Below, piece by piece: positions 49,065 through 64,000 of a DNA stretch of 64,000 bases (within the stretch, counting starts at the first letter, position 1; each line of letters opens with the position of its first letter). Under the pieces are notes generated by a model, which had not been told where the DNA came from, ran no database searches, and was given only the letters and a program-made list of their open reading frames with translations. Position numbers and translations under genes: made by a program. Where the stretch lies: the NCBI RefSeq assembly GCF_014199205.1, contig NZ_JACIJD010000009.1, forward strand, positions 124,001 to 188,000, given 5' to 3'. This DNA comes from Muricoccus pecuniae (GTDB lineage Bacteria; Pseudomonadota; Alphaproteobacteria; Acetobacterales; Acetobacteraceae).

Positions 49065-49246
49065 GGGCTTCCCCTGCTGCGCCCCGGCCGGCGCTGCCGG
49101 GCCGCGAAGGGCTGAGCGTCTGTCACGCCGCGGCGTTGCCCGCACCAGCCTATGAGGGGGCCGCGCGCCGGGCGCGGCACGCGGCGCGCGGGGAAGGCGG
49201 CGATGCCCGCTTCCGCTCACCGCCCGCTCCCCCTATTCCCCCGCCC

Positions 49247-50500
49247 ATGTCCGACGCGACCGACGCCCAGCTCGCCGCCCAGTACGAGGCGCTTCCCTAT
49301 CCCGCCCGCGACCCGCGGGACGAGGCGAAGCGGCTGGTGGTGGGCAGCCCCTCGCACCTGCTGGAGGTGGACCACTGGGTCTTCGGGGCGAGGCGCCCGG
49401 CCTCGGAGCCGCTGCGCGCGCTGGTGGCCGGGGGCGGCACGGGGGACGGGGCGATCATGCTCGCCCAGCAGTTGGCGTGGGCCGGGCGGCCGGGCGAGGT
49501 GGTCTGGCTGGACCGCTCCGGCGCCGCGCGCCGCGTGGCCGAGGCGCGGGCGGCGGCGCGGGGACTGGGGAACATCCGCTTCGTCGAGGGCTCGATCCTC
49601 GACCTCCCGGAGATCGGGAAGTTCGACTACGTCGATTGCTGCGGCGTGCTGCACCACCTGCCGGACCCGCTGGCCGGGCTGCGGAGCCTCTCCTCCGTGC
49701 TGGCGCCGGGGGGCGGCATGGGGATCATGGTCTATGCCCCGCACGGGCGGACGGGCGTCTACATGCTGCAGGACGCGCTGCGGCTGATCGCCCCGGTGGA
49801 GGAGCCGCCGGCCGCGCGGGTGGACCTGGCCAAGCGCGTGATGCGCCACCTGCCCGAGACCGCCTGGCTGCGGAAGAACCCCTGGATCACCGACCACCTT
49901 CCCCTGCCGCAGGGGGGCGGCGATCCCGGCCTCTACGACCTCCTGCTGAACCCGCGCGACGTCTCCTTCACCGTGCCGCAGCTCGACGCGCTGGTGCGGG
50001 ATGCCGGGATGCGGATCACCCTTCTCGTCGAGCCCGTGCGCTACGACCCCGACCCCCTGCTGCCCGACCCCCGGCTGCGCGCGCGCACGGCCGCCATGGG
50101 CATGGTCGAGCGCGCCGCCCTGGCCGAGGCGCTGGCGGGGAACATGGGCATCCACATCGCCTATCTCTCCCGCGCGGAGGAGCCCGCCCCGCGCGCCGAC
50201 TGGGAGGACCCGGACGCCGTGCCCGTGCTGCGCGGGGGCGACGGCGCGACCTGGGCGAAGGGCATCCGGGGCGGCAGCCTGCCGATCACCTATGACGGGC
50301 TGAGGATCGCGGTGCCCGTGCCGCCGCTCGCCGCCGCCATCCTCACCCGCATCGACGGGGTGCGGACGCTCGCCGAGATCGCGCGGGCGGTGGAGGAGGG
50401 CGGGGCCGCCCCCGCCGCCGTGGCGCGGGACATGGCGGCGCTGCGCGCGGCGATGGAGCCGGTGAACCGCCTCCTCCTCTCCGCTCCCCGCGCCCGATGA
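49247..50500 (+). CDS. SAM-dependent methyltransferase with C-terminal helical domain
   Basis: 417 residues. An N-terminal QYEALPYPARDPRDEA motif precedes the methyltransferase core with VAGGGTGDGAIMLAQ (motif I), WLDRSG, and DYVDCCGVLHHLPDPLAGL (motif IV). The last 80 residues form a winged-helix-like segment (ILTRIDGVRTLAEIARAVEE). Homologues occur in several proteobacteria; the substrate is unknown. It overlaps the ydcF-like gene by ATGA. Confidence 0.78.
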   Translation: MSDATDAQLAAQYEALPYPARDPRDEAKRLVVGSPSHLLEVDHWVFGARRPASEPLRALVAGGGTGDGAIMLAQQLAWAGRPGEVVWLDRSGAARRVAEARAAARGLGNIRFVEGSILDLPEIGKFDYVDCCGVLHHLPDPLAGLRSLSSVLAPGGGMGIMVYAPHGRTGVYMLQDALRLIAPVEEPPAARVDLAKRVMRHLPETAWLRKNPWITDHLPLPQGGGDPGLYDLLLNPRDVSFTVPQLDALVRDAGMRITLLVEPVRYDPDPLLPDPRLRARTAAMGMVERAALAEALAGNMGIHIAYLSRAEEPAPRADWEDPDAVPVLRGGDGATWAKGIRGGSLPITYDGLRIAVPVPPLAAAILTRIDGVRTLAEIARAVEEGGAAPAAVARDMAALRAAMEPVNRLLLSAPRAR

Positions 50501-51027
50501 GCGGCGCCTCCCGCCCCCCGTCCCGCCCGGCCATCGTCATCTTCGGCGCCGCCGTGCGCCCGGACAGCCGCCCGAGCGAGACGATGCGCCGGCGCGTGAC
50601 GGCCGCGGTGGAGCTGGGGGAGATGCTGGGCGGGAACGCGCTCTTCGTGCCCACGGGCGGGGAGGGAAGGCACGGGCCGGCGGAATCGGCCGTGATGGCG
50701 AAGCTGCTGCGGGACTGGGGGATCGATCCCGACCGCATCCTGGAGGAGCCGACGGGCACCGACACCCTCTCCTCCGCCCGCGCCGTGGCCGCGCTGCTGC
50801 GGGGATGGGAGGGGCGGGTCCACCCGGTCTCCTCGGGCTACCACCTGCCGCGCTGCGGGCTGCTGCTGCGGCTCATGGGGCTGCGGCTCGGGCGCGGGCG
50901 CGCGGCCCATGCCGGGCCCGGCTTCGCCGAGTGGCGCTGGCGGCTGCGGGAGATGCCCGCGCTGCCCTATGACGCGGCGCTCGCCCTGTGGCACCGGGCG
51001 CGGGGGCGGCGGCGGCCCCAGGGGTGA
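50497..51027 (+). CDS. YdcF-family (DUF218) protein
   Basis: 176 residues. The DUF218 pattern is AIVIFGAAVRPDSRPSETMRRR, PTGGEGRHGPAESAVMAKLL and EEPTGTDTLSSARAVA. Members bind nucleotide or SAM-like ligands and include ElyC-type envelope factors; this one lacks an obvious transmembrane anchor. Coupled to the methyltransferase. Confidence 0.85.
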   Translation: MSGASRPPSRPAIVIFGAAVRPDSRPSETMRRRVTAAVELGEMLGGNALFVPTGGEGRHGPAESAVMAKLLRDWGIDPDRILEEPTGTDTLSSARAVAALLRGWEGRVHPVSSGYHLPRCGLLLRLMGLRLGRGRAAHAGPGFAEWRWRLREMPALPYDAALALWHRARGRRRPQG

Positions 51028-51263
51028 GGCGTTGCCTCCCCCTGACCCCCCTACACCGGGGAGCCAGCGGGCTCCCCGGACCCCGCGTCGGGGCTGCCGC
51101 GGATACGATGATCGAAGGGTAGACTCTGGGCAGCACGGGCTGCGGTGACAGTCGCCTGAGATCACGGACCTCAGGCGCGCTGCCAGCGTAACCGCCGAAC
51201 AGATGGTGGGGTCCGGGGAGCCTCCAGGCTCCCCGGTGGAGGGGCAGGGGGAGGCGTCGCCTC
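51026..51263. mobile_element. MITE-like element with long inverted terminal arms
   Basis: Arms 51026-51086 and 51206-51263 are imperfect reverse complements of about 60 bp; each also has an inner CCGGGGAGCC/GGCTCCCCGG stem and a GAGGC/GCCTC end. The 119-bp core carries no gene and has a CGCCTGAG/CTCAGGCG hairpin. It sits in the gap between the converging ydcF and FYDLN genes. A non-autonomous element or a folded RNA/DNA structure are both possible. Confidence 0.65.
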
Positions 51264-51304
51264 CCCCGGGGCAACCCGCGCCGCGCGTGGCGCGGGAGAG
51301 GGCC

Positions 51305-51625
51305 TCAGCTCTCCTCGTCTTCCCCGGTCTCGACGCCGATCTCCTCGCCGAGATCCTCGTCCTCGTCCAGGTCGTCCGTGTCCTCCGCCACGTCGGCGTC
51401 GGCGTCGTCCACCTCAACCTCATCCGTGTCGGCGCCCTCCACCGCGGCGGGGCGCTTGCGGACCTTCTCCTCCGGCAGCGGGGCGGCCGCGCGGCGGGCG
51501 CGGGGCTGCTCGGCGGGCTGCTCGGTGCCGCATTTCGGGCAGACGGCAGGGTTCTTGGTCAGGTCGTAGAAGCGGGCACCGCAGGCGACGCAGGTCCGCT
51601 TGAGGCCGAGTTCGGCAAGGGCCAT
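51305..51625 (-). CDS. FYDLN acid family protein (TIGR02300)
   Basis: 106 residues. The zinc-ribbon-like start [24 protein letters not shown] is split as CxxC and CxxC around FYDL; the last 45 residues are nearly all Asp/Glu. The family is alphaproteobacterial, found next to aroA and cmk, and its function is unknown. It is divergent from aroA here. Confidence 0.9.
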
Positions 51626-51752
51626 CAGGGAAGCCTCGAAGGGGTCCGGGCGGGCCGCGGACCGGGGGTGTGCGAAAGGGCGGCGCCGATTGCCATGGGG
51701 GGCGGGGCGTGTCAAACGCCGCGGCACCTCTTTCCTGACGCAAGGGCTGCCG

Positions 51753-53153
51753 ATGCCCCATCTCCCCGCGCCGACGGCGCCCCATCCGGGCGCGGCGCCC
51801 GCGCCGGCCCCCATGCGCTCCGCCGCGCCGGGCCGGGGCCTGAAGGGGCGGATCGGCGTTCCCGGCGACAAGTCCGTCTCCCACCGCGCGCTGATGTTCG
51901 GGGCGCTCGCGGTCGGCACCACCGAGATCACGGGGCTGCTGGAGGGGGAGGACGTGCTCCGCACCGCCGCCGCCATGCGGGCGCTCGGCGCCGAGGTGGA
52001 GCGGCTGGGGGAGGGCCACTGGCGCGTCGCGGGCCGCGGCGTGGGCGGGCTGGTCGAGCCGGCCGACGTGCTGGACATGGGCAATTCCGGCACCGCCGCG
52101 CGGCTGATCTGCGGCCTCCTGGCCGGGCACCCCCTCTTCGCCGTGCTGACGGGCGACGCCTCCCTCCGGCGCCGCCCGATGCGGCGGGTGACGGAGCCGC
52201 TGCTGGCGACCGGCGCGCGCTTCACCGGCCGCGCGGGCGGGCGCCTGCCGCTGGCGGTGGAGGGGGCGGCCGAGCCCATGCCGCTCGACTACGAGGTTCC
52301 CGTGCCCTCCGCCCAGGTGAAGTCGGCCCTGCTGCTGGCCGGGCTCTGCGCCCGCGGCACCACGCGGGTGACCGAGCGCGAGGCGACCCGCGACCACACG
52401 GAGAACATGCTGCGCCATTTCGGCGCGACCGTGCGCGTGGCGGCAGAGGGCAACCGCCGGGTGATCGAGCTGGAGGGGCAGCCGGAGCTGCGCGCCGCCC
52501 CCGTGGCCGTGCCCGCCGACCCGTCCTCGGCCGCCTTCCCGCTCGTGGCCGCCCTCCTCGTGCCGGGATCGGAGGTGACGGTGGCGGGCGTCGGGCTGAA
52601 CCCCCTCCGCACCGGGCTGTTCGACACGCTGCGCGAGATGGGGGGCGGCCTCTCCGTCACGAATGCGCGGGTGGAGGGCGGGGAGCCCGTGGGGGACCTC
52701 ACGGCCAGCTTCTCCGCCCTGCGAGGGGTGGACGTGCCGGCCTCACGCGCGCCCTCCATGATCGACGAGTATCCCGTGCTGGCGGTGGCCGCCGCCTTCG
52801 CGCGCGGGACCAGCCGCTTCCGGGGCCTGGCGGAGTTGCGGGTGAAGGAGAGCGACCGGCTGGCCGCGACCGTCGCCCTGCTCGCCGCGAACGGCGTGCG
52901 GGCGGAGGTGGAGGGCGACGACCTCATCATCGCGCGCGACGGCGCCCCCGCCCCCGGCGGCGGGACGGTGGAGACCCATATGGACCACCGCATCGCCATG
53001 TCGGCCCTGGTGATGGGGCTGGCCTCGACGCGGCCGGTGGCAGTTGACGACACCGGCTTCATCGACACCTCCTTCCCCGGCTTCACCGGCCTGATGAACG
53101 GGCTGGCCGGCGGGCCGGCCATCGCCGCGCCGCCGTCAGGGTTGAGGGAGTAG
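51753..53153 (+). CDS. aroA: 3-phosphoshikimate 1-carboxyvinyltransferase (EPSP synthase)
   Basis: 466 residues. [67 protein letters not shown] and [11 protein letters not shown] are all family signatures. The pattern is closest to class II (CP4-like). At the position of CP4 Ala100, this enzyme has Gly (MGNSGT). The N-terminal 20 residues are Pro/Ala-rich; translation could also begin at the ATG at 51813. It is 3 bp before cmk. Confidence 0.96.
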
Positions 53154-53156
53154 GGC

Positions 53157-53831
53157 ATGAGCGAGAGCGCCCCCGGAGCCACCCCACCCGAGGGGCTGAC
53201 CGAGCCCGTCGTCATCGCGGTGGACGGGCCGGCGGCCGCGGGCAAGGGCACGCTGGCCCGGCGCCTCGCGGCCGAGCTGGGCCTGCCCTATCTCGACACC
53301 GGCCTGCTCTACCGCGCCGTCGCCCGCCGCGTGCTGCTGGAGGGCGGCCTGCCGACCGACCCCGCCGCCGCCGAGGCCGCCGCCCGCGCCCTCACCCCCG
53401 CCGACCTGGAGCGCACCGACCTCCGCGGCCCCGATGTGGACCAGGGCGCGAGCCAGGTGGCCGCCCAGCCCGCCGTGCGCGCGGCGCTGCTCGACTTCCA
53501 GCGCGGCTTCGCCGCCCGCCACGGCGGAGTGATGGACGGGCGCGACATCGGCACGGTGGTCTGCCCCGATGCCCGGGTGAAGCTCTTCGTCACCGCCTCG
53601 CCCGAGGCCCGCGCCCGCCGCCGCTGGCTGGAGCGGCAGGCGCGCGGCGAGGCGATCCCGCTGGAGGAGGTGGCGGCCGAGATGGCCGTGCGCGACGCCC
53701 GCGACGCCGCCCGCGACGTGGCCCCCATGCGCCCGGCCGAGGACGCGGCCCTGCTGGACACGACGGCGCTGGACGCGGAGGCGGCCTTCGGGGAGGCGAT
53801 GACGCTCGTGCAGGCGAAGCTGGGGGTCTAG
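53157..53831 (+). CDS. cmk: Cytidylate kinase
   Basis: 224 residues. The P-loop is [32 protein letters not shown] and [15 protein letters not shown] bind nucleotide and phosphate. It phosphorylates (d)CMP. Order aroA-cmk-rpsA is typical, but here small genes lie between cmk and rpsA. The TAG stop is inside repeat copy C. Confidence 0.96.
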
Positions 53832-53934
53832 AGCGGTTTCCGTTCGCCGTGGCTCACGGCAACCGCTCTAGCATGTTGTCTGAAAAGCCGATTCACCCAT
53901 CCCGGTGATCCCACCGGAACGGGATCGGCTCTAG
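53828..53934. repeat. Two-hairpin intergenic repeat, copy C (variant second half)
   Basis: The first half CTAGAGCGGTTTCCGTTC to AACCGCTCTAG is nearly identical to copies A and B. The second half differs: AGCCGAT/ATCGGCT outer arms, CATCCCG/CGGGAT and CCGGTG/CACCGG inner arms. It includes the cmk stop and fills the convergent junction with the 70-residue ORF. Confidence 0.9.
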
Positions 53935-53950
53935 GGCCTGCCCGCCCCCT

Positions 53951-54163
53951 CTAGCCCGGCAGGTCCCCGGGGCTTTCCTCGGCCGGGTGGCCTTCCTCCC
54001 GCAGGTCCCTGCGGATGCGCCGGAGCTGGTCCGCCACGAGGCTCAGGGCGAGGTTGGCCCGCTCGGGATTCCCCTCGTGCAGGGCGTGGCGGCACTCGTC
54101 GAGCGGCCCGGAGAGCACGTCGAGGATGGCGTCCGCCGCCCGGCTCGCTGCGTCATGCGCCAT
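53951..54163 (-). CDS. Small helical protein, 70 residues
   Basis: The protein is charged and helical throughout (DAILDVLSGPLDECRHALHE, SLVADQLRRIRRDLREE). It has no signal or membrane segment. It starts 3 bp after the DUF1488-like gene, so they are likely one transcript. Function unknown. Confidence 0.6.
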   Translation of the reverse strand: MAHDAASRAADAILDVLSGPLDECRHALHEGNPERANLALSLVADQLRRIRRDLREEGHPAEESPGDLPG

Positions 54164-54166
54164 GGT

Positions 54167-54487
54167 TCAGGACGGAACCCCTGGGGCCGCGGCCTGGACG
54201 GGCGCCATCGGCTCCTCCTCCAGGTCGCTGGACCAGATGTGGAGCACCCCGGTCACGGCCGAGCGGGAGCGGAGCTTCTGGAGGGCGGCGAGCATGATCC
54301 GGTCCTGCATATGGACGAACTGTGCCAGCAGCGCGCCGGGGAGACCCGTCCGGCACCCGCTCGCATCCTGGATGGCCGCCCGGGAGACCGAGCACGCGAC
54401 GGCCTCGCCCTGGTTCTCGACCTCGAACAGCACGCAGCCCTGGCCCGAGCGCGGCGCGGCGAGGATGATCTTGCCTGCCTCGGTCAC
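54167..54487 (-). CDS. DUF1488-like protein
   Basis: 106 residues. GCVLFEVENQGEAVACSVSR and FVHMQDRIMLAALQKLRSR resemble DUF1488 (a small protein family with FEV...V-C-VSREAL and a helical end). The GTG start overlaps the upstream 48-residue ORF stop (GTGA). The DUF call is a pattern match made by eye. Confidence 0.55.
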   Translation of the reverse strand: MTEAGKIILAAPRSGQGCVLFEVENQGEAVACSVSRAAIQDASGCRTGLPGALLAQFVHMQDRIMLAALQKLRSRSAVTGVLHIWSSDLEEEPMAPVQAAAPGVPS

Positions 54488-54630
54488 GGCGTCATCAGGC
54501 CAGCGAGGATGAGCACCGCGAGCGCACCGCCCAGCAGGCCGAGCACCGGCAGCGTGTTCACGGCGAAGGCACGCTTCGCGGCGCGCAGCCAGTGGAGGAT
54601 CGGTATGGCGGCCTGTGACGTCTGGAACAT
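54484..54630 (-). CDS. Small membrane protein, 48 residues
   Basis: It reads MFQTSQAAIPILHWLRAA, then a basic KR stretch, then one transmembrane helix (LPVLGLLGGALAVLILAGL). It ends TGA in a GTGA overlap with the DUF1488-like gene. Coupling and a proper inside-positive, outside-hydrophobic layout support it being real. It heads a three-gene operon of unknown role. Confidence 0.5.
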   Translation of the reverse strand: MFQTSQAAIPILHWLRAAKRAFAVNTLPVLGLLGGALAVLILAGLMTP

Positions 54631-54746
54631 CGATCAACCTAGCACGCGCCGGGCCAGCGCGGGCGCATGTTGGACGCACGTTACCGGCATGAGGCGCCGG
54701 GCATGGAGCGGGGAGCCGCGCCCGGTCGCGCTTTCGTGCCTTGTCA

Positions 54747-54761
54747 TGCTGCAGTGCAGCA
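54747..54761. promoter_or_regulatory. 15-bp palindrome in a divergent gap
   Basis: TGCTGCA-G-TGCAGCA is perfect. It lies between the leftward 48-residue membrane-protein operon and the rightward 40-residue ORF and may be an operator. Confidence 0.4.
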
Positions 54762-54810
54762 CAACCTGTCCGGACGGGATTGGGGAGGATCAACAGTGAG
54801 GATCCAACCC

Positions 54811-54933
54811 ATGTTCGAAGCCGTCTTCCTCTCCTCCATCGCCCTGCTCGCCGTCGCCCAGGTCGCGACCCGCCGTGCCCTGGACAGGTCGCCCGGTCTG
54901 TCCCGCATGCTCCATCGAGCCCCGGCGGAGTGA
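54811..54933 (+). CDS. Possible 40-residue membrane protein
   Basis: It starts MFEAVFLSSIALLAVAQVAT, one hydrophobic helix, then a basic tail RRALDRSPGLSRMLHRA. GAGGAT precedes the ATG by nine bases. Small size and lack of coupling make it uncertain. Confidence 0.35.
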   Translation: MFEAVFLSSIALLAVAQVATRRALDRSPGLSRMLHRAPAE

Positions 54934-55052
54934 GCCCGGGGGCCTCCCCGGCCTCAGCATCCCAGGTTCCGTCGGGCGCGCGGGCGGGCGCGCGGGCGAT
55001 CGTGGCCGCCGGGGCGCGCCGCGGCCCTGGCGCCCCCGGGCCCACGCGGCCC

Positions 55053-55081
55053 TTGCGATTTCCCGCCTCCCCGGGATAAAA
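55053..55081 (+). promoter_or_regulatory. rpsA promoter
   Basis: TTGCGA (55053-55058) and ATAAAA (55076-55081) are spaced 17 bp, a good sigma-70-type match in a GC-rich setting. Confidence 0.65.
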
Positions 55082-55088
55082 GCACCCT

Positions 55089-55117
55089 CGCGGCCGGGGG
55101 TTCTGCTCCCGGCCGCG
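55089..55117 (+). promoter_or_regulatory. rpsA leader hairpin
   Basis: CGCGGCCGGG and CCCGGCCGCG make a perfect 10-bp stem with a 9-nt loop just after the promoter. There is no U-run, so it is a leader structure and not a terminator. Confidence 0.6.
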
Positions 55118-55276
55118 CACCCGTATCAGGGGTGCATCCCCCATGGGCCCGGGCATCCCGGGCAAGACGTGCCATCCCGGCCAGCCAGGACACCTCGGAA
55201 GAGGGGGCGGCCCGGCGGATGGGGCGCAGACCCCCGGCGGTGCCCTTCGCGCCGCCTCTCAGGAACACATCGCTAC

Positions 55277-56995
55277 ATGGCTTCTGCCACCACCCTCGAC
55301 CGCGGCGCTGCCGCCGGCGAGGACTTCGCCTCCCTCCTCGACGCCACGCTGGGCGCCGACACCGGCTTCGCCGGCTCGGTCGTCACGGGCAAGGTGATCC
55401 GCATCGACGACGACGTCGCGGTCGTCGATGTCGGCCTCAAGAGCGAGGGGCGCGTGCCGCTTCGCGAGTTCGCTCCCCAGGGCCAGAAGCCCGAGGTGAA
55501 GCCGGGCGACCTGATCGAGCTCTTCGTCGAGCGCTACGAGGACCGTGACGGCTCCATCGTGCTCTCGCGCGAGAAGGCCCGCCGCGAGGAGGCCTGGACC
55601 AACCTGGAGAAGCAGTTCCAGGCCGGCGTCCGCGTCAACGGCGTGATCTTCGGCCGCGTGAAGGGCGGCTTCACCGTCGACCTCGGCGGCGCGGTGGCCT
55701 TCCTTCCCGGCTCCCAGGTCGATATCCGCCCCGTGCGCGATGTCGGGCCGCTGATGGGCTCGCCCCAGCCCTTCCAGATCCTGAAGATGGACCGCGCCCG
55801 CGGGAACATCGTGGTGTCGCGCCGCGCCGTTCTCGAGGAGACGCGCGCCGAGCAGCGCTCCGAGCTGATCCAGGGCCTCAAGGAAGGCATGGTGCTCGAC
55901 GGCGTGGTGAAGAACATCACCGACTACGGCGCCTTCGTGGACCTCGGCGGCGTCGATGGCCTGCTGCACGTGACCGACATCGCCTGGCGCCGCATCAACC
56001 ACCCGAGCGAGGCCCTGACCATCGGCCAGCCCGTGAAGGTGCAGGTGATCCGCTTCAACCCGGAGACCCAGCGCATCAGCCTCGGCATGAAGCAGCTGAT
56101 GGCCGATCCGTGGGAGGGCGTGGCCGCCAAGTACCCCGTGCAGGGCAAGTTCTCCGGCCGCGTGACGAACATCACCGACTACGGCGCCTTCGTGGAGCTG
56201 GAGCCGGGCGTCGAGGGCCTCGTCCATGTGAGCGAGATGTCCTGGACGAAGAAGAACGTCCATCCTGGCAAGATCGTCGCCACTTCGCAGGAAGTGGAGG
56301 TGGTGATCCTCGACGTGGACGAGCCGAAGCGCCGCATCTCGCTCGGCCTGAAGCAGGCCCAGGGCAATCCCTGGGAGGTCTTCATGGAGCAGAACCCGCC
56401 CGGCACGATCGTCGAGGGCGAGATCCGCAACATCACCGAGTTCGGTCTCTTCGTGGGCCTGGCCCCGGAGATCGACGGCATGGTCCACATGTCCGACCTG
56501 TCGTGGGACCTGTCGCCGGAGCAGGCGATGGCGAACTACAACAAGGGCGACACCGTCAAGGCCAAGGTGCTCGACATCGATATCGAGAAGGAGCGCATCT
56601 CCCTCGGCATCAAGCAGCTCGAGGCCGACCCGGCCGCCGAGGTGCTGGATCGCGTCCGCAAGGGCGAGGTCGTGACCTGCGTCGTGACGAAGGTCGAGGC
56701 CAACGGCATCGAGGTGAAGGTCGATGAGGTCCTCACCGGCTTCATCCGCCGCGCCGAGCTGGCCCGCGACCGCAACGACCAGCGGCCCGAGAAGTTCGCG
56801 ATCGGCGAGAAGGTCGATGCGAAGGTGACGGCCGTGGACCGCGCCGCCCGCCGCCTGGCCCTGACGATCAAGGGCAAGGAGATCGAGGAGGAGCGCGAGG
56901 CGGTGAAGGAGTTCGGCACCTCCGACAGCGGCGCCTCGCTGGGCGACATCCTCGGCGCGGCCATCCGCCGCCGGAACCTGTCCTCGGACGAGTGA
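55277..56995 (+). CDS. rpsA: 30S ribosomal protein S1
   Basis: 572 residues with six S1 RNA-binding repeats (starting near residues 33, 118, 203, 288, 375 and 460), with the repeated ITDYGAFVDL/ITEFGLFVGL core. It binds mRNA leaders and brings them to the 30S subunit. AGGAA precedes the ATG. It lies downstream of aroA-cmk but with small genes between; ihfB, usually next, is 34 kb away here. Confidence 0.98.
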   Translation: MASATTLDRGAAAGEDFASLLDATLGADTGFAGSVVTGKVIRIDDDVAVVDVGLKSEGRVPLREFAPQGQKPEVKPGDLIELFVERYEDRDGSIVLSREKARREEAWTNLEKQFQAGVRVNGVIFGRVKGGFTVDLGGAVAFLPGSQVDIRPVRDVGPLMGSPQPFQILKMDRARGNIVVSRRAVLEETRAEQRSELIQGLKEGMVLDGVVKNITDYGAFVDLGGVDGLLHVTDIAWRRINHPSEALTIGQPVKVQVIRFNPETQRISLGMKQLMADPWEGVAAKYPVQGKFSGRVTNITDYGAFVELEPGVEGLVHVSEMSWTKKNVHPGKIVATSQEVEVVILDVDEPKRRISLGLKQAQGNPWEVFMEQNPPGTIVEGEIRNITEFGLFVGLAPEIDGMVHMSDLSWDLSPEQAMANYNKGDTVKAKVLDIDIEKERISLGIKQLEADPAAEVLDRVRKGEVVTCVVTKVEANGIEVKVDEVLTGFIRRAELARDRNDQRPEKFAIGEKVDAKVTAVDRAARRLALTIKGKEIEEEREAVKEFGTSDSGASLGDILGAAIRRRNLSSDE

Positions 56996-57031
56996 TCCTC
57001 CCGGCCCGCAAGGGCCAGGAGAAAGAGAGAG

Positions 57032-57061
57032 AGGGCCGTCCCGTTCGGGGCGGCCCTTTTT
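57032..57061 (+). terminator. Rho-independent terminator of rpsA
   Basis: GAGGGCCGTCCCG, TTCG loop, GGGGCGGCCC, then TTTTT. It is 36 bp past the rpsA stop and is the cleanest terminator in the window. Confidence 0.92.
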
Positions 57062-57307
57062 CGTTGAGCGCCCCCGGCGCGGGCCCCCGGCGCGGGAGGG
57101 TGAAGGTCCGCCCGGTGCCGGGACGCCGGGAGGGGGTTGGCGAGGAAGGCGCGCCGATTCCTGGCGGCGCGGGGCGGGCCCCTCCCTGCCCCTGCCACGC
57201 CCGCGGCCCACGAGTTCGCCACGAGAGGTCAGGCGGCTGCGCCATCCCGGTTCCGCGGAAGGGGGCGGGTGCCCGGTGGCGGCACCCACCCGGCGTGGCG
57301 GCGAAAG
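57062..57307. other. Gap between the two convergent terminators
   Basis: About 250 bp without a supported gene or RNA. Open frames here are antisense shadows of the GC-rich composition. Confidence 0.5.
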
Positions 57308-57335
57308 AAAAGGGCCGCCCCCGACGGGACGGCCC
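57308..57335 (-). terminator. Rho-independent terminator of the adenylation/acyltransferase gene
   Basis: On the minus strand AGGGCCGTCCC, GTC, GGGGGCGGCCC is followed by TTTTCTTT, 28 bp past the stop at 57363. Its sequence is nearly the same as the rpsA terminator at 57032. Confidence 0.88.
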
Positions 57336-57362
57336 TCTGCCTCTCGGCCTTTCCGCCCGTCC

Positions 57363-60170
57363 TCAGGCCTTGAGGACGGGGAGGGAACCTGCCCCGTCCC
57401 GCACCGGGGCGGCCGGGCCGCGGCGGCCCCGCGCGACGCCGGTGAAGAGCAGCATCGTCACCGGGTTGCGGGAGACGACCGCGTGGAAGCCGAGCGACAG
57501 GGCGAGGGTGGCGGGGACGATGATCGCGAATTCGAGCAGGACGGGCAGGTCCAGCCGGGCGAAGCCCGCGCCGAGGAACACCACGAAGACGAGGTGGACG
57601 AGGTAGATCGTCATCGAGGCGTCCACGAGCCGGCGGCCCCAGCGCGTCGAGCGGTCGAACCAGCGCAGCGCCACGTAGAGCACGATCCGCGCCCAGAAGA
57701 GGCCCGCCATGGGGGAGAGGAAGAAGCTCAGCGCGCGGAAGAGCGTCTCCTCCCGGTAGCGGATCGCCACCAGCACCGCCGTGGAGGCCAGGGCCACCGC
57801 CACGGTCCACAGGTCCGCCGAGGCGAAGCGCCCGATCAGGTCCCGCCGCGCGGCCAGGAGGCAGCCCATTGCGAAGGCGGGAAAGAGGGAGACCATCTCG
57901 CTGAGATAGAGTGAGTCCCAGAGGATGAAGGTGAGGCCGAGGGCCTTCAGAACCGCCACGCCGAGCACGGTGACGAGGCCGGCCGCCATGGTGGTGAGGG
58001 TGAAGCTCGCCCCGCTCGACAGGATGATGTCGGCCGCCGAGGCCGCGTCCCGCATGATCGACCGCCGCCGCCACAGGCTGCAGGCCCAGGCGAAGGCGCC
58101 GTAATAGGCGATGAGGAAGACGAGGAACCAGACATGCACGATCCAGTGCTCGCCCGGCCGGGCTAGCTGGGCCAGCCAGTTCGCCATCACCTGGTCGTCG
58201 GCGCCCATGTTGAGCGCGTGGGCCAGCATGATGAGGGGGTTGAGCAGCAGCATCGTGGCGGCCAGCGGGATGCCGAGCTGGATCGCGCGGTTGCGCCACC
58301 ACGGCCCCGGCCTCTCGCGGTCGATGAACATCATCGCGAAGAAGCCGGCCAGCACGAAGAAGCCGGGCATGCGGAAGGTGTTGAGGACCTCCGCGAAGAG
58401 GGTGAGGGGGGTGGAGACCGGGCCCGCCTTCACGATCCAGGGGTAGTCCATATAGGCCAGGGCGGCATGGTAGGGGATGCCGAGCAGCATCAGCCCCGTC
58501 CGCGCCTGGTCGAGGAAGAACAGGCGGGACTGGCCGGCCGGCCTCGCCTCGGGCATGCGGGGCGGGATGGCGGAGAGCTCGCCCAGGCTCATCCGCTCCC
58601 ATCCCTCGGGCACGAAGCCCAGCCGCTCCTCCACCAGGAGGGAGGCGTTGATGAAGTTGAGGGAGTCGCCGCCCGCCGAGGAGAAGGAATCCTCCGCCTT
58701 GAGGCCGGGCTGGCCGAGCAGCTCGGCGAAGGCGTCCTGCAGGGAGAGGTGGCCGGCGGGCAGGCCGGTATCGGTGGCGGCGAAGCTGCCGCGCAGCCCG
58801 GCATAGTCGATCTTGCCCGAGGCGAGGCGCGGCAGCTCGGAGAGCTGGAGCACCCGCACGCTCGCGGGGGAGACGGGATAGCGGCCGAGCACGGCCTCCA
58901 GCACCGCCTCCGTCCGTGCGGGGGCGACGACGGCGATCTGCAGCCCGTCGTCATTGCCCGTGGCCGCGGCCTCGATCCCGGCCGCGCGCAGCAGGGCCTC
59001 GACATCGTCCAGCCCGATGCGGAGGCCGAAGGGCTTGATGAAGCGGCTCTTGCGCCCGGTGATGGTGAAGAGCCCCTCCGTGCCGAGCACGGCGAGGTCC
59101 CCCGTGCGCAGCTCCGTCAGCTCCGCGCCGCGGGCGAGGTCCTCCCGCTGGGTGGCGTAGCCCATCATCACGTTCGGGCCGGAATAGACGAGTTCCCCCT
59201 CCACCCCCGGCGCCTCGATGCGCCGGCCGCGCTCGTCCAGCAGGGTGATCCGCCCGCCCGGCACGGGCAGGCCGATCGCGCCGGGATGCTGGCGGAGCAG
59301 GGCGGGCGGGACATAGGCGATGCGCGGGGCGGCCTCGGTCTGGCCGTACATGACGTAGAAGCGGCGCCCCTCGCCTTCGGCGAAATCGGCGAAGCGCAGC
59401 ACCCGCTCCTCCGGCAGCCGCCCGCCGGCCTGGGTGAAGTAGCGCAGCGAGGGCGGCGCGGGGCGGGAGAGGAAGCCCGAGCGCTCCAGCAGGGCAAAGC
59501 TGTGGGGCACGCCGGCGAAGCTCGTCGCCCCATGCGCCTCGAAGCAGGCCCAGAAGGCGGGCTCGGCGACGGAATCCTCGTTCAGGATCAGCGCGTGCCC
59601 CGTCGCGAGGTGCGAGTTGATGACGGACATGCCGTAGGAATAGTGGAAGGGCAGGGTGGTGATGGCCCGCTCGCCCGGGGCGAGCTCCAGGTATTCCGCG
59701 ATGGCGAGCGCGTTGGAGCGGACATTCTCCACGGAGAGGCGGACGAGCTTCGGCTCGCCCGTGGAGCCGGAGGTGGCGAGCAGGACGGAGAGGTCGGGAT
59801 GCAGCCCGCCCGCCGGGACGCCGCCGGCCAGGGCGCGCCAGCCCTCTCCCGCATGCAGGAAGTCCGGCCGGAAGCGCGCGAGCAGGGGGGAGTTCTCCTC
59901 GGCCTCGCCGAGGAGGAGCACGGCATGGCCCCCGCGCAGCGCGCCGACATAGGCGGCCAGCGCCCCCAGCCCGTTCGCCGCCCGAAGGGCGACGAGGCAG
60001 CGCTGCCGGGGCAGGGCCGCGCATTCCGCATCGGCCAGGGCGGCGAATTCGGCATGGGACCAGGGGCGGCCGGTCTCGTCGATGACGGCGAGGGCGTCCC
60101 CATGGCTCTCGAGCGCGTCGAAGAGGCCGCGCAGCCTCTCCATCGTGCCGTCCGGTTGTGTCCCGACCAT
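57363..60170 (-). CDS. Adenylation domain - carrier domain - membrane acyltransferase-3 fusion protein
   Basis: 935 residues. (1) ANL adenylation domain, about 1-445: LLATSGSTGEPKLVRL (P-loop, near 130), YVMYGQTEAAPR, LRTGDLAVLG, GRKSRFIKPFGLRI and LASGKID (catalytic Lys). (2) Carrier domain, about 465-535, with the phosphopantetheine Ser in AGGDSLNFINAS (near 502). (3) Acyltransferase-3/OpgC-like domain, about 550-905, with about ten membrane helices and the R-x10-H motif ARTGLMLLGIPYHA, then FRMPGFFVLAGFF. In order these would activate an acid, tether it and pass it across or onto a glycan or other acceptor. The gene stands alone, divergent from trxA. Confidence 0.85.
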   Translation of the reverse strand: MVGTQPDGTMERLRGLFDALESHGDALAVIDETGRPWSHAEFAALADAECAALPRQRCLVALRAANGLGALAAYVGALRGGHAVLLLGEAEENSPLLARFRPDFLHAGEGWRALAGGVPAGGLHPDLSVLLATSGSTGEPKLVRLSVENVRSNALAIAEYLELAPGERAITTLPFHYSYGMSVINSHLATGHALILNEDSVAEPAFWACFEAHGATSFAGVPHSFALLERSGFLSRPAPPSLRYFTQAGGRLPEERVLRFADFAEGEGRRFYVMYGQTEAAPRIAYVPPALLRQHPGAIGLPVPGGRITLLDERGRRIEAPGVEGELVYSGPNVMMGYATQREDLARGAELTELRTGDLAVLGTEGLFTITGRKSRFIKPFGLRIGLDDVEALLRAAGIEAAATGNDDGLQIAVVAPARTEAVLEAVLGRYPVSPASVRVLQLSELPRLASGKIDYAGLRGSFAATDTGLPAGHLSLQDAFAELLGQPGLKAEDSFSSAGGDSLNFINASLLVEERLGFVPEGWERMSLGELSAIPPRMPEARPAGQSRLFFLDQARTGLMLLGIPYHAALAYMDYPWIVKAGPVSTPLTLFAEVLNTFRMPGFFVLAGFFAMMFIDRERPGPWWRNRAIQLGIPLAATMLLLNPLIMLAHALNMGADDQVMANWLAQLARPGEHWIVHVWFLVFLIAYYGAFAWACSLWRRRSIMRDAASAADIILSSGASFTLTTMAAGLVTVLGVAVLKALGLTFILWDSLYLSEMVSLFPAFAMGCLLAARRDLIGRFASADLWTVAVALASTAVLVAIRYREETLFRALSFFLSPMAGLFWARIVLYVALRWFDRSTRWGRRLVDASMTIYLVHLVFVVFLGAGFARLDLPVLLEFAIIVPATLALSLGFHAVVSRNPVTMLLFTGVARGRRGPAAPVRDGAGSLPVLKA

Positions 60171-60254
60171 CCCAACTCCTCCGGACCTACAACCCGCTCG
60201 ATATGAACAAGCCCGGTCTTTCTTCTTCCCAGGCTAATGCCGCCATTATTTCCC

Positions 60255-60320
60255 AATTTGGAGACGCGATTGGTGAATAGGTTGTGATGTTAACATTATA
60301 TAAGAATTCAGAAAACTCGA
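60255..60320. promoter_or_regulatory. AT-rich divergent promoter region of the fusion gene and trxA
   Basis: It is strikingly AT-rich. A perfect TATAAT on the minus strand (60295-60300) and the palindrome ATGTTAACAT (60287-60296) overlap. TTGGTG and TTGTGA are possible plus-strand -35 elements for trxA. The fusion gene leader would be about 115 nt. Confidence 0.5.
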
Positions 60321-60456
60321 TCTCCAGTCATGTAATTGAGACACCCTCCCTGCGTGCCCTGCCCGCCCCGTGCTCCGCGATGGCCCCGCCTTGACCGCGG
60401 CCCCGAGCATGCCGACCTTCCCCCGCGACACCCCCATTCACGGGACGCAGGACGAG

Positions 60457-60789
60457 ATGAGCGAGAACACCAAGGCCGTCAGCGACGAGACCTTCCAGAC
60501 GGACGTGCTCCAGGCCCCCGGCCCCGTGCTGGTGGACTTCTGGGCGGAGTGGTGCGGCCCCTGCCGCATGGTGGGCCCGATCCTCGACGAGATCGGCAAG
60601 GATTATGCGGGCAAGCTGACGGTCGCGAAGGTGAACATCGACGAGAACCCGATGACGCCGAACCAGTACGCCGTGCGCGGCATCCCCACCATGATCCTGT
60701 TCAAGGACGGCAAGCCCGTGGACATGAAGGTGGGCGCCATGCCCCGCGGCCAGCTCCGGGCCTGGGTGGACCAGGCGCTCGGGGCCTGA
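60457..60789 (+). CDS. trxA: Thioredoxin
   Basis: 110 residues. VLVDFWAEWCGPCRMVGP holds the active-site CGPC, and GIPTMILFKDGKPV holds the cis-Pro. It reduces protein disulfides in the cytosol. The ATG at 60457 gives a normal length; an in-frame upstream extension is non-conserved. trxA usually follows folC in alphaproteobacteria; here it is 36 kb away. Confidence 0.96.
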   Translation: MSENTKAVSDETFQTDVLQAPGPVLVDFWAEWCGPCRMVGPILDEIGKDYAGKLTVAKVNIDENPMTPNQYAVRGIPTMILFKDGKPVDMKVGAMPRGQLRAWVDQALGA

Positions 60790-60794
60790 GCCGC

Positions 60795-61934
60795 TTGGCC
60801 GGCGCGCGCTCCCTCGCCCTCCTCCTGGGGTGGGGGCTGGCCGCCTGTGCCGCTCCCGTCGCCTCGCAGGAGGTGGTGCGGAGCGAGCGCGCCGCCTTCC
60901 GCGTGCGGGACTTCGCCACCGGGCTCGACCGTCCCTGGGGCGCCGCCTTCCTGCCGGACGGGCGGCTGCTGGTGACGGAGCGGCCCGGGCGGCTGCGGAT
61001 CGTCGGGCGGGACGGGGCGGTCTCGCCCCCGCTGCCCGGCGTGCCGGAGGTTGTGGCCGCCGGCCAGGGCGGGCTGCTGGACGTGGCGCTGGCCCCTGAC
61101 TTCGCCGCCACGCGCGAGGTCTATCTCTGCCACTCCGCCCCCGCCGGCGGCGGGGCGTTGACGCGGCTGTCGCGCGCGACCCTCTCGGCCGATGCCACCC
61201 GGCTGGAGGGCACGCGGGCGCTGCTGGACGCGGCGCCGGCCCAGTCCTCCGGACGGAACCACTTCGGCTGCCGCATCGCCTTCGGGCGGGACGGCAAGCT
61301 CTTTCTCTCCACCGGCGACCGCTACAACGACAAGGAGCGGGCGCAGCGCCTGGGCGACCTCGCGGGCAAGGTGCTGCGGCTGGAGCGGGACGGACGGCCG
61401 GCGGAGGGCAACCCCTTCCTCGGGCGCACGGGCGCGCGGCCGGAAATCTTCTCCTATGGCCATCGCAACCCCCAGGGGCTGGCGGTGAACCCCGCCACGG
61501 GCTCGCTGATCGAGATCGAGTTCGGCGCGCGCGGCGGCGACGAGGTGAACCTCCTGCGCGCCGGCGCGAATTACGGCTGGCCCCTCGTCTCCTACGGCAC
61601 GGATTACGACGGCAGCGCGATCGGCACGGGCAAGGCGAGCGCGCCGGGGATCGAGGAGCCGCTGCGCCACTGGACCCCGGCGGTGAGTCCGTCGGGCGGG
61701 AACTTCCTCACCGGCGATGCCTTTCCCGGCTGGAAGGGGAACCTCTTCCTCGCGGCGCTTCGGCCCCCCGGGCTGGTGCGGCTGACGATGGAGGGGGACC
61801 GCATCCTGGGGGAGGAACGGCTTCTCTGGGGGCGCACGCGCTTCCGGCAGGTGCTCGGCGGGCCGGACGGGCTGCTCTACGTCCTGACGGACGAGGATCG
61901 CGGCCGGGTGCTGCGGCTGGAGCCGGCGGAATGA
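60795..61934 (+). CDS. PQQ-dependent aldose sugar dehydrogenase-like lipoprotein
   Basis: About 379 residues. The TTG start at 60795 gives a signal with a lipobox-like LAAC near residue 18. The six-bladed propeller of the soluble glucose dehydrogenase (YliI/Asd) family is indicated by GLDRPWGAAFLPDGRLLVTERPG (split), GRNHFGCRIAFGRDGKLFLS, FSYGHRNPQGLAV and GANYGWPLVSYG. It oxidises sugars in the periplasm. It starts 5 bp after trxA and overlaps gpx by ATGA. Confidence 0.85.
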   Translation: MAGARSLALLLGWGLAACAAPVASQEVVRSERAAFRVRDFATGLDRPWGAAFLPDGRLLVTERPGRLRIVGRDGAVSPPLPGVPEVVAAGQGGLLDVALAPDFAATREVYLCHSAPAGGGALTRLSRATLSADATRLEGTRALLDAAPAQSSGRNHFGCRIAFGRDGKLFLSTGDRYNDKERAQRLGDLAGKVLRLERDGRPAEGNPFLGRTGARPEIFSYGHRNPQGLAVNPATGSLIEIEFGARGGDEVNLLRAGANYGWPLVSYGTDYDGSAIGTGKASAPGIEEPLRHWTPAVSPSGGNFLTGDAFPGWKGNLFLAALRPPGLVRLTMEGDRILGEERLLWGRTRFRQVLGGPDGLLYVLTDEDRGRVLRLEPAE

Positions 61935-62416
61935 GCGGGCTGCTGGACCTCTCGGCGCCGCTCCCCGGGGGCGGGGCGCAGCCGCTCTCGGATTACCGTG
62001 GCAAGGTGCTGCTGGTCGTCAACACGGCCAGCCGCTGCGGCTTCACCCCGCAATACGAGGGGCTGGAGGCCCTGCGGCGGCGCTTCGGGCCGCGCGGCTT
62101 CGAGGTGCTGGCCTTTCCCTGCAACCAGTTCGGCAAGCAGGAGCCGGGCGACGCGGCGGAGATCGCCAACTTCTGCACCACGAAATACGACGTCACCTTC
62201 CCCGTCTTCGCCAAGGTGGAGGTGAACGGGGCCGGGGCGGAGCCGGTGTTCCGGCTGCTGAAGAAGGCGGCGCCGGGCGCGCTCGGGACGGAGGCGGTGA
62301 AGTGGAACTTCACCAAGTTCCTCGTGGACCGCGAGGGGCGGGTGGTGGCGCGCTACGCGCCGGCCACCGCGCCGGAGAAGCTGGCGGGGGAGATCGAGCG
62401 CCTGCTCGGCGCCTGA
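61931..62416 (+). CDS. Glutathione peroxidase
   Basis: 161 residues. The catalytic Cys lies in VNTASRCGFTPQY; FPCNQFGKQEPG and KWNFTKFLVDREG complete the Cys-Gln-Trp site. It reduces H2O2 and organic hydroperoxides, probably with thioredoxin, consistent with trxA two genes upstream. ATGA overlap with the sugar dehydrogenase. Confidence 0.93.
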   Translation: MSGLLDLSAPLPGGGAQPLSDYRGKVLLVVNTASRCGFTPQYEGLEALRRRFGPRGFEVLAFPCNQFGKQEPGDAAEIANFCTTKYDVTFPVFAKVEVNGAGAEPVFRLLKKAAPGALGTEAVKWNFTKFLVDREGRVVARYAPATAPEKLAGEIERLLGA

Positions 62417-62433
62417 GGCCCCCGCCTGTTCCC

Positions 62434-62658
62434 TCAGCCCAGCCGGCCGCCCGGGCGCGGGACGGAGAGGACGAAGAGGCGGTGGTTCGCGATGTCGATG
62501 TTGCGGCGCGCCTTCTCGTTCCACACGCGGTCGGCCGTCTTCACGTCGTGATAGGGGCCGTAGCTCTCCTCCGTGCCGGGCTCCAGCTCGGAGAAGGAGG
62601 CGTCGGTGAAGATGCCGCCCCAGATGAAGTGGAGCTGGGGATAGGTGTTGTCGGGCAT
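62434..62658 (-). CDS. DUF4170 protein
   Basis: 74 residues. The pattern HFIWGGIFTDASFSELEPGT and VWNEKARRNIDIANHRLFVL match the small alphaproteobacterial DUF4170 family. Function unknown. It converges with gpx. Confidence 0.85.
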   Translation of the reverse strand: MPDNTYPQLHFIWGGIFTDASFSELEPGTEESYGPYHDVKTADRVWNEKARRNIDIANHRLFVLSVPRPGGRLG

Positions 62659-62813
62659 GGACCTCGGCTCGGCTGGTGATGCGTCGCAGCACATAGCGCC
62701 GCGGGGGTGATTCCCCAAGCCCGGGGCGGGTTCCGCGGCCCCGTTCGTTCCCCTTTCGTGCTTGCCCGCGGGCCGGGATGACCCCATATCCCGGAACCAT
62801 CCGGAGGCGTGAC

Positions 62814-64000
62814 GTGGAGCTGCGCGAGAAGCTCGAGATCCTGGCCGATGCGGCGAAGTACGACGCCTCCTGCGCCTCCTCCGGCACGGAGAAGCGGGAC
62901 AGCCGGGAGGGCGGGCTCGGCAGCACCGAGGGCATGGGGATCTGCCACGCCTACGCGCCGGACGGCCGCTGCATCTCGCTGCTGAAGGTGCTGCTGACGA
63001 ATGCCTGCGTCTTCGACTGCGCCTACTGCATCAACCGCGCCTCCTCCAACGTGCGGCGGGCGCGCTTCTCCGTGCGGGAGATCGTGAACCTCACGCTCGA
63101 CTTCTACCGCCGGAACTACATCGAGGGGCTGTTCCTCTCCTCCGGCATCATCCGCTCCCCCGACTACACGATGGAGCAGCTCGTCCGCGTGGCGCGGGAG
63201 CTGCGGGAGACGCACGGCTTCCGCGGCTACATCCACCTCAAGACCATCCCCGACGCCGACCCCGCCCTGCTGGCCGAGGCCGGGCGCCACGCCGACCGCC
63301 TCTCGATCAACGTGGAGCTGCCGGCGGCCGAGAGCCTGAAGGCGCTCGCGCCGGAGAAGGACGGGGCGCGCATCCGGGTCGCCATGGCCGGGCTGCGCTC
63401 GCGCATCGAGGAGGCGAAGGAGGCGCGGGCGGAGGCGGCGAAGGTGAGGGTGGCGATGTCGGGCGGCCCGCGCGCCGCGGCCCCCCGCTTCGCGCCCGCC
63501 GGGCAGTCCACCCAGATGATCGTCGGCGCCGATGCCTCGACCGACGAGACCGTGCTGAACACGAGCGCGACGCTCTACGGCTCCTACCGCCTCAGGCGCG
63601 TCTACTTCTCCGCCTACTCGCCCATCCCCGACGCCGCCGCCATCCTGCCGCCCGTGGCCCCGCCGCTGGTGCGGGAGCACCGGCTCTACCAGGCGGACTG
63701 GCTGCTGCGCTTCTACGGCTTCAGCGCCGCCGAGGTGATCTCGGGCGGGGAGGGCGGGATGCTCGACCTGGAGCTGGACCCCAAGCTCGCCTGGGCGCTG
63801 AAGAACCGCTGGATCTTCCCGCTGGACGTGAACCGGGTGGATCGCGAGGCGCTGCTGCGCGTACCCGGCCTCGGCGCGAAGACGGTGGAGAAGATCCTGT
63901 CGGCCCGTCGCGTGCGGTCGTTCCGCATGGCCGACCTCGCCCGCCTCCGGGTGAATCTGAGGAAGGTCGCGCCCTTCATCACGGCCGCCGACCACCGCCC
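62814..64000 (+). CDS. Putative DNA-modification/repair radical SAM protein (TIGR03916 type), truncated by window edge
   Basis: At least 395 residues from the GTG at 62814 (GGAGG 7 bp before). The radical SAM cluster motif is TNACVFDCAYCINRASS. The C-terminal part has the helix-hairpin-helix RVPGLGAKTVEKIL, a DNA-binding unit. The family has been named a putative DNA modification/repair enzyme and is usually adjacent to a TIGR03915 partner, which would lie beyond the right edge. Confidence 0.85.
   Translation, partial: MELREKLEILADAAKYDASCASSGTEKRDSREGGLGSTEGMGICHAYAPDGRCISLLKVLLTNACVFDCAYCINRASSNVRRARFSVREIVNLTLDFYRRNYIEGLFLSSGIIRSPDYTMEQLVRVARELRETHGFRGYIHLKTIPDADPALLAEAGRHADRLSINVELPAAESLKALAPEKDGARIRVAMAGLRSRIEEAKEARAEAAKVRVAMSGGPRAAAPRFAPAGQSTQMIVGADASTDETVLNTSATLYGSYRLRRVYFSAYSPIPDAAAILPPVAPPLVREHRLYQADWLLRFYGFSAAEVISGGEGGMLDLELDPKLAWALKNRWIFPLDVNRVDREALLRVPGLGAKTVEKILSARRVRSFRMADLARLRVNLRKVAPFITAADHR

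Follow-up and report, generated by a model that had tools for sequence, protein, structure and literature searches.

A 64,000-nucleotide stretch of the Muricoccus pecuniae genome (contig NZ_JACIJD010000009.1, positions 124,001 to 188,000; hereafter the window) carries on its minus strand a gene (57363..60170) whose 935-residue product joins an adenylation domain, a carrier domain and an acyltransferase-3 (AT3) membrane domain in one chain. What acid does such a protein activate, to what does it pass the acid on, and to what end? A sequence-only reading of the window had proposed a one-chain ligase-carrier-acyltransferase analogous to the Dlt system of teichoic acid D-alanylation (DltA, DltC, DltB, DltX and DltD), with an AT3 replacing the MBOAT protein, that decorates an envelope glycan with an amino or other acid. 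The domains of the protein and the recurring pairing of carrier and acyltransferase among its relatives support this Dlt-like core. Three points had escaped that reading: the OpgC-like nature of the AT3, the rarity of the fusion in its own family and the iron link of the wider family.

We propose that the protein is a self-loading transmembrane acyl transferase serving ferric-iron capture, and give this proposal as a whole about an even chance. We infer that the N-terminal domain would adenylate a carboxylic acid without an α-amino group, probably an anionic one of the hydroxy- or dicarboxylic kind (malate, citrate or succinate, for instance), and that the acid would be loaded onto the phosphopantetheine of the protein's own carrier domain. 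The carrier would then offer the acyl thioester, in place of acyl-CoA, to the AT3 pore at its cytosolic entrance, and the AT3 would hand the acyl group on to an extracytoplasmic acceptor. Ferric-iron capture is the most likely use of the product in the wider family, since the position and regulation of the gene resemble those of genes for iron uptake. Taken alone, the Dlt-like mechanism is quite likely.

Architecture and spread of the fusion

The gene occupies exactly the single open frame drawn by the sequence-only reading, which had not stated the strand. It begins with an ATG that has GGAGGA just 5' of it, and its stop codon lies at 57363-57365. The ANL adenylation domain (residues 1-466; 58773..60170, minus strand, as for all parts of the gene given below) scored 142.4 bits against Pfam AMP-binding (PF00501; cut-off 29.9, residues 126-338). 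Its core motifs are intact, as had been claimed: SGSTGEPK, YGQTE279, TGD358 and K453, the last being the catalytic A10 lysine by core-motif reading and alignment (58812..58814). The core residues are conserved in 80/80 aligned relatives. The carrier (peptidyl carrier protein, PCP) domain (residues 467-535; 58566..58772) rose barely above the cut-off of Pfam PP-binding (PF00550; 21.2 versus 20.8 bits, residues 477-519). It has its GGDS503 motif, in which the phosphopantetheine attachment serine Ser503 of GGDSL (58662..58664) is shared by all 76 relatives with a letter at that position.

The OpgC-like AT3 transmembrane domain (residues 536-935; 57366..58565) scored 79.5 bits against Acyl_transf_3 (PF01757; cut-off 31, residues 552-895), and with it all three Pfam families expected from the sequence-only reading stood above their cut-offs. 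The R-x10-H motif named there lies within the single DxxRx10H occurrence of the protein, D554/R557/H568 (Arg557, 58500..58502; His568, 58467..58469), a motif given in PMC12423673. Other conserved transmembrane acyltransferase (TmAT) positions given in PMC12423673 are also present: FxxxxG in transmembrane helix (TMH) 2 as F604 and G609, and SxxxY in TMH9 as S852 and Y856. The RxxR of TMH3 has R628 as its first arginine and Gln631 in place of the second; the same paper calls the first arginine alone conserved in most members. A hydropathy scan of the AT3 part gave nine strong helices, and these together with the motif helix (~557-575), which fell below the scan threshold, make up a count of ten. 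A sequence search of solved structures with the AT3 part returned no match at E up to 1. The third-position G+C content of codons (GC3) was 0.94-0.97 across all three parts, with no step at the joints. The same genome contains an Sfp-like frame of 251 residues and an ACPS-family frame of 165 residues.

Another genus of the family supplied two genomes with full-length orthologues, whose identity to the window protein is 66% and 65% across almost its entire length. The segments are therefore no product of faulty sequencing or assembly. Lys453, Ser503, Arg557 and His568 are identical in the window protein, both orthologues and two Asticcacaulis fusions, so the active residues have not been lost in close homologues. 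No neighbours common to the window and the two orthologues were recognised in the part of the tblastx output that was read, and the neighbours of the one orthologue read in detail differ from those in the window.

Scans at widening taxonomic range placed the fusion among its relatives. Four of 15 genomes of the genus and five of 200 genomes of the Acetobacteraceae gave a match, and in both scans the fusion was found in the window's genome only. An order-wide scan (299 genomes, 1e-40) gave 11 genomes with a match and three with the whole fusion, namely the window's and those of the two orthologues. The fusion is therefore rare near home and conserved where present. Judged by open-frame length, it was fused in four of the 11 matching genomes in the class, including the window's (385 scanned), and in eight of the 26 in the phylum (398 scanned), which also held one split form. 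Nine of 248 genomes of a further family (f23) matched, mostly with frames of 848-905 residues, judged here by length. In a plasmid scan 231 records matched, all of them over less than 80% of the query, and in the plasmid records examined the fusion is annotated only as "AMP-binding protein". A scan of named genomes yielded at least 594 stretches; 587 of those listed were confirmed. The relatives studied here are the best 80 of these 587, a choice that favours the most window-like, and comprise 52 loci from Actinomycetota, 25 from Pseudomonadota and three others. In each of the 80 a single frame holds the adenylation-carrier module, that of L095 being cut by a contig end. A literature search, with most subscription papers outside its reach, found no description of an adenylation-carrier-AT3 fusion.

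The activated acid and the membrane partners

Mapping onto EntF and EntE gave the specificity code SYSATAMPRK for the window protein and both orthologues; as a control, the same mapping returned DVWHFSLVDK for EntF and NYSAQGVVNK for EntE, their known codes. Asp235, which holds the amino group in amino-acid-activating domains, is replaced by Ser178 in the window protein, and among the 80 fused relatives this position is Cys in 52 and Ser in 28. With no acidic residue to hold the amino group, an α-amino acid or D-alanine is rejected as substrate, and the amino acid named among the candidates of the sequence-only reading is not supported. Positions 239 (Ser), 301 (Ala), 322 (Met) and 331 (Arg) are each invariant in the 80 fused relatives, and therefore one kind of substrate is likely throughout. 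Arg331, which corresponds to Arg283 of the window protein by alignment with EntF and EntE (59322..59324), is also present in 9/11 stand-alone relatives.

The top solved-structure match of the adenylation domain was the β-amino-acid adenylation enzyme VinN (3wvn, E 6e-27). VinN likewise has an arginine at position 331, reported to bind the α-carboxylate (PMC7756342 and PMC12186527; residues in PMC11253843), but its Asp230 holds the amino group where the window protein has Ser178, and it serves a free-standing carrier. Since the aspartate is replaced by serine and an arginine sits in the pocket, the activated acid would most likely be anionic and lack an α-amino group; malate, citrate and succinate are guesses.

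We surveyed the Pfam partners of the adenylation-carrier module in 19 of the 80 relatives together with the fusions found earlier. The usual partner was an AT3, often below the Pfam cut-off; one relative (L038) has LuxE joined to the module. In a fusion from Photobacterium (L058:5998-10068) and one from Massilia (L072:5974-10123) the module is followed by one transmembrane helix and a GDSL/SGNH lipase part, with an MBOAT gene (PF03062, 83.0 and 81.5 bits) right after the stop codon or 10 bases past it. Among NCBIfam models DltB is the closest for both MBOATs (165.6 and 159.4 bits, under the cut-off of 375). Both end in FIYFQF, which may be the acyl-Tyr hexapeptide of PMC12148441. The two loci look like a carrier-fed MBOAT/SGNH system outside Dlt. 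In another genome (G803) a separate, divergent AT3 frame overlaps the end of the adenylation-carrier frame (L136:6295-9268), where an assembly frameshift is possible. Together with the SGNH fusions that have an MBOAT next door, this split form shows a carrier repeatedly linked with a transmembrane acyltransferase. Directly downstream of a Rhizorhapis fusion (L063:5914-9635) comes another AT3 gene, which encodes 361 residues and is more canonical in type.

In a tree of AT3 domains that of the window nests among stand-alone OpgC-like proteins (support of the OpgC group 100/99), the closest being a stand-alone protein of the same family with 41% identity. The NCBIfam MdoC/OpgC model NF003014 gave it 205.9 bits, below the cut-off of 338. 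One clade for all fused AT3s was rejected by the approximately unbiased test (p-AU 6.7e-38 with 43 rows, and more weakly, 0.013, in a reduced set without long rows), as was a clade of the window and Asticcacaulis AT3s (p-AU 0.006 and 0.022). One loading module would therefore have met several membrane acyltransferases. A quick adenylation tree (68 rows) places the fused forms together beyond a branch with support 98, which leaves a single origin of the fusion possible. On these comparisons the adenylation-carrier module stays joined or adjacent to acyltransferases of different descent, namely divergent AT3, OpgC-like AT3, more canonical AT3 and MBOAT.

Iron boxes and importers beside the relatives

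A ferric-type substrate-binding protein like that of Catellatospora lies near the fusion in 30 of the 52 actinobacterial loci. The order of importer and fusion varies (upstream in one operon, divergent, downstream or convergent), and an HYY motif is kept in more than 85% of the 30 proteins. For two substrate-binding proteins that were searched, the nearest solved sequences were ferric-binding proteins (E 1.9e-81 and 9e-69), and NCBI annotates an "iron ABC transporter" in three of four plasmid loci, the fourth having none.

We then took the best match to the IdeR/DmdR1 box, TTAGGTTAGGCTAACCTAA, over the whole of each actinobacterial locus. It lay at the transcription unit's promoter in 46/52 loci (33/52 counting the fusion's own promoter alone); 300 permuted palindromes did so in 9.1 loci on average and in 45 at most, and 300 full shuffles in 28 at most. 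The 52 loci include close relatives; by genus label the hit was present in 25/28. Among the six misses, L074, L102 and L105 have their site elsewhere beside the fusion or importer, while L112, L114 and L134 are without support. In the four actinobacterial plasmid loci just mentioned, which are additional to the 52, the top site likewise precedes either the fusion or the importer.

A different box recurs in rhizobia. TGA-N9-TCA, described as the RirA box (PMC6386902; PMC8822346), lies upstream in 13 of 15 mutually non-independent rhizobial loci; other spacers gave 0-2, and the background was 0.124 per 290 bases. The Sinorhizobium meliloti fusion lies three genes before ndk, which is SMc00595, and would thus be SMc00592 by gene counting. 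Table 2 of PMC2848241 lists SMc00592, itself no object of that study, as a hypothetical transmembrane protein whose expression under swarming conditions follows that of the hmu, fhu and exb genes. An iron role of the fusion family is fairly likely. For the window protein such a role would be carried over from relatives that share its specificity residues and show the iron link, and we regard it as evenly balanced.

Several observations weigh against the proposal as a whole. The fusion promoter lies in an intergenic region (60171..60369, minus strand) shared with a divergent trxA-like gene starting at 60370, and no convincing iron box was found there. The best match in the window to an iron control element (ICE)-like palindrome, 12/16 at 60297-60313, falls in this A+T-rich promoter and is inseparable from A+T content. 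No iron genes adjoin the window fusion, whose neighbours we take to be rpsA-, trxA-, sugar-dehydrogenase- and glutathione-peroxidase-like frames, and the two orthologues have differing neighbours and no common box that we could find. The Catellatospora-like substrate-binding protein was near the fusion in 0/25 loci of Pseudomonadota and 0/3 others. The best NCBIfam names for the importer parts were 2-aminoethylphosphonate and polyamine types, all under cut-off, and the identity of the S. meliloti gene rests on a gene count from ndk. The AT3 enzymes studied so far are described as users of acyl-CoA (PMC9558356; PMC12423673), and the former, a review, disfavours an acyl carrier protein (ACP) as donor. 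The iron role may not hold for the OpgC branch.

Competing explanations and known systems

The strongest alternative, which we consider possible though doubtful, keeps to the sequence-only reading: a one-protein Dlt analogue, with no particular tie to iron, would decorate a glycan of the envelope to set its charge or surface properties. In the window's case a succinate-like group would be attached by the OpgC-like AT3 to a glycan of the periplasm or surface. This would suit the place of the AT3 among OpgC-like proteins with its MdoC score, and the window gene's lack of an adjoining iron gene. The nearest stand-alone adenylation relatives examined also sit in glycan clusters (L139:5870-10546, L137, L141, L147, L148 and L149), whose frames include ACP, short-chain dehydrogenase/reductase (SDR), LuxE-like and LuxC-like ones by Pfam on two loci and a map read in part; L148 has adenylation and LuxE in one chain. 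Against decoration, actinobacterial and rhizobial relatives that have the specificity residues of the window protein show iron boxes and iron importers, and the window gene lies outside any glycan cluster. Moreover, a search of the M. pecuniae genome for opgG (PF04349), needed for the classical OpgC acceptor, gave no match, and the Escherichia coli control was positive; classical succinylation of osmoregulated periplasmic glucans is rejected on that ground. OpgC/MdoC succinyltransferases, unlike the window protein, stand alone and are thought to use succinyl-CoA, whereas here the donor would come from the joined carrier.

It is less probable, and in our view unlikely, that the AT3 acylates a small outside acceptor, or releases or exports the product, so that a small diffusible siderophore results. 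Iron-box control and importer linkage would then be as at siderophore genes, where DmdR1 sites have been reported (PMC7174319). However, Pfam finds a single activation domain and no condensation domain in the protein. The importers are of the FbpA type, whose solved relatives bind bare Fe3+ and not a ferric-siderophore; in favour of a diffusible product, Actinobacteria are not known to make the periplasmic glucans on which OpgC acts. That the joined AT3 is inactive in acyl transfer and merely anchors the loading module in the membrane is very improbable: the Arg628-x-x-Gln631 of TMH3 falls short of a full RxxR, but Arg557 and His568 are kept in 31/31 aligned fusions and the TmAT positions Phe604, Gly609, Ser852 and Tyr856 are present.

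A more specific form of the iron-capture proposal is tentative, and we hold it somewhat less probable than not. Self-loading acyltransferases of several phyla, made under iron starvation, would fix a hydroxy-polycarboxylate with free chelating groups on a cell-surface acceptor, from which FbpA-type importers would take ferric iron; one gene would thus provide a bound siderophore, and the window protein would belong to an OpgC-type branch. Should the iron link be true, rhizobia, Streptomyces, Arthrobacter and mycobacteria would have in this fusion an unrecognised gene of their response to iron starvation.

In Dlt, the transfer of acyl groups through the membrane from a carrier is already established, and the window protein shares with this system ATP-dependent activation of an acid, loading of a carrier (Ser503) and a transmembrane acyltransferase; the Photobacterium and Massilia relatives add the DltB-nearest MBOAT and an SGNH part. 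Unlike Dlt, the window protein is one chain, has an AT3 in place of the MBOAT and lacks the aspartate for an amino group; the relatives show an iron tie, and the MBOAT stands beside two distant relatives only. Transmembrane transfer to an outside acceptor is also a feature of AT3-SGNH and MBOAT-SGNH acylation (OatA, OafB and PatAB). The epsilon-poly-lysine and delta-poly-ornithine synthetases, too, have adenylation, carrier and membrane parts in one chain, but they activate diamino acids, polymerise them and are not known to have an AT3 domain. The MBOAT/SGNH pathways other than Dlt are described as working without a carrier protein in PMC12148441 (2025), whereas the transmembrane-SGNH relatives found here have the carrier built in. 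Because the loading module is joined to at least two AT3 lineages and to SGNH with MBOAT, transfer from a carrier would be a general scheme with exchangeable parts.

Lastly, we noted features around the fusions. A Rhizobium phaseoli fusion (L049:10536-17407) has next to it an AAA ATPase gene together with YcaO-like and TfuA-like ones, which may belong to a peptide cluster of no relation to the fusion. Long antisense frames are numerous at positions 49136-63995 of the window; a G+C content of 74% leads one to expect them, and they were not counted as genes. About 13 kb past the fusion, beyond the window but on the same contig, a 691-residue frame (G000:C9:194819-195850, L052) carries a second AT3 domain, the sole other one found in the M. 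pecuniae genome.

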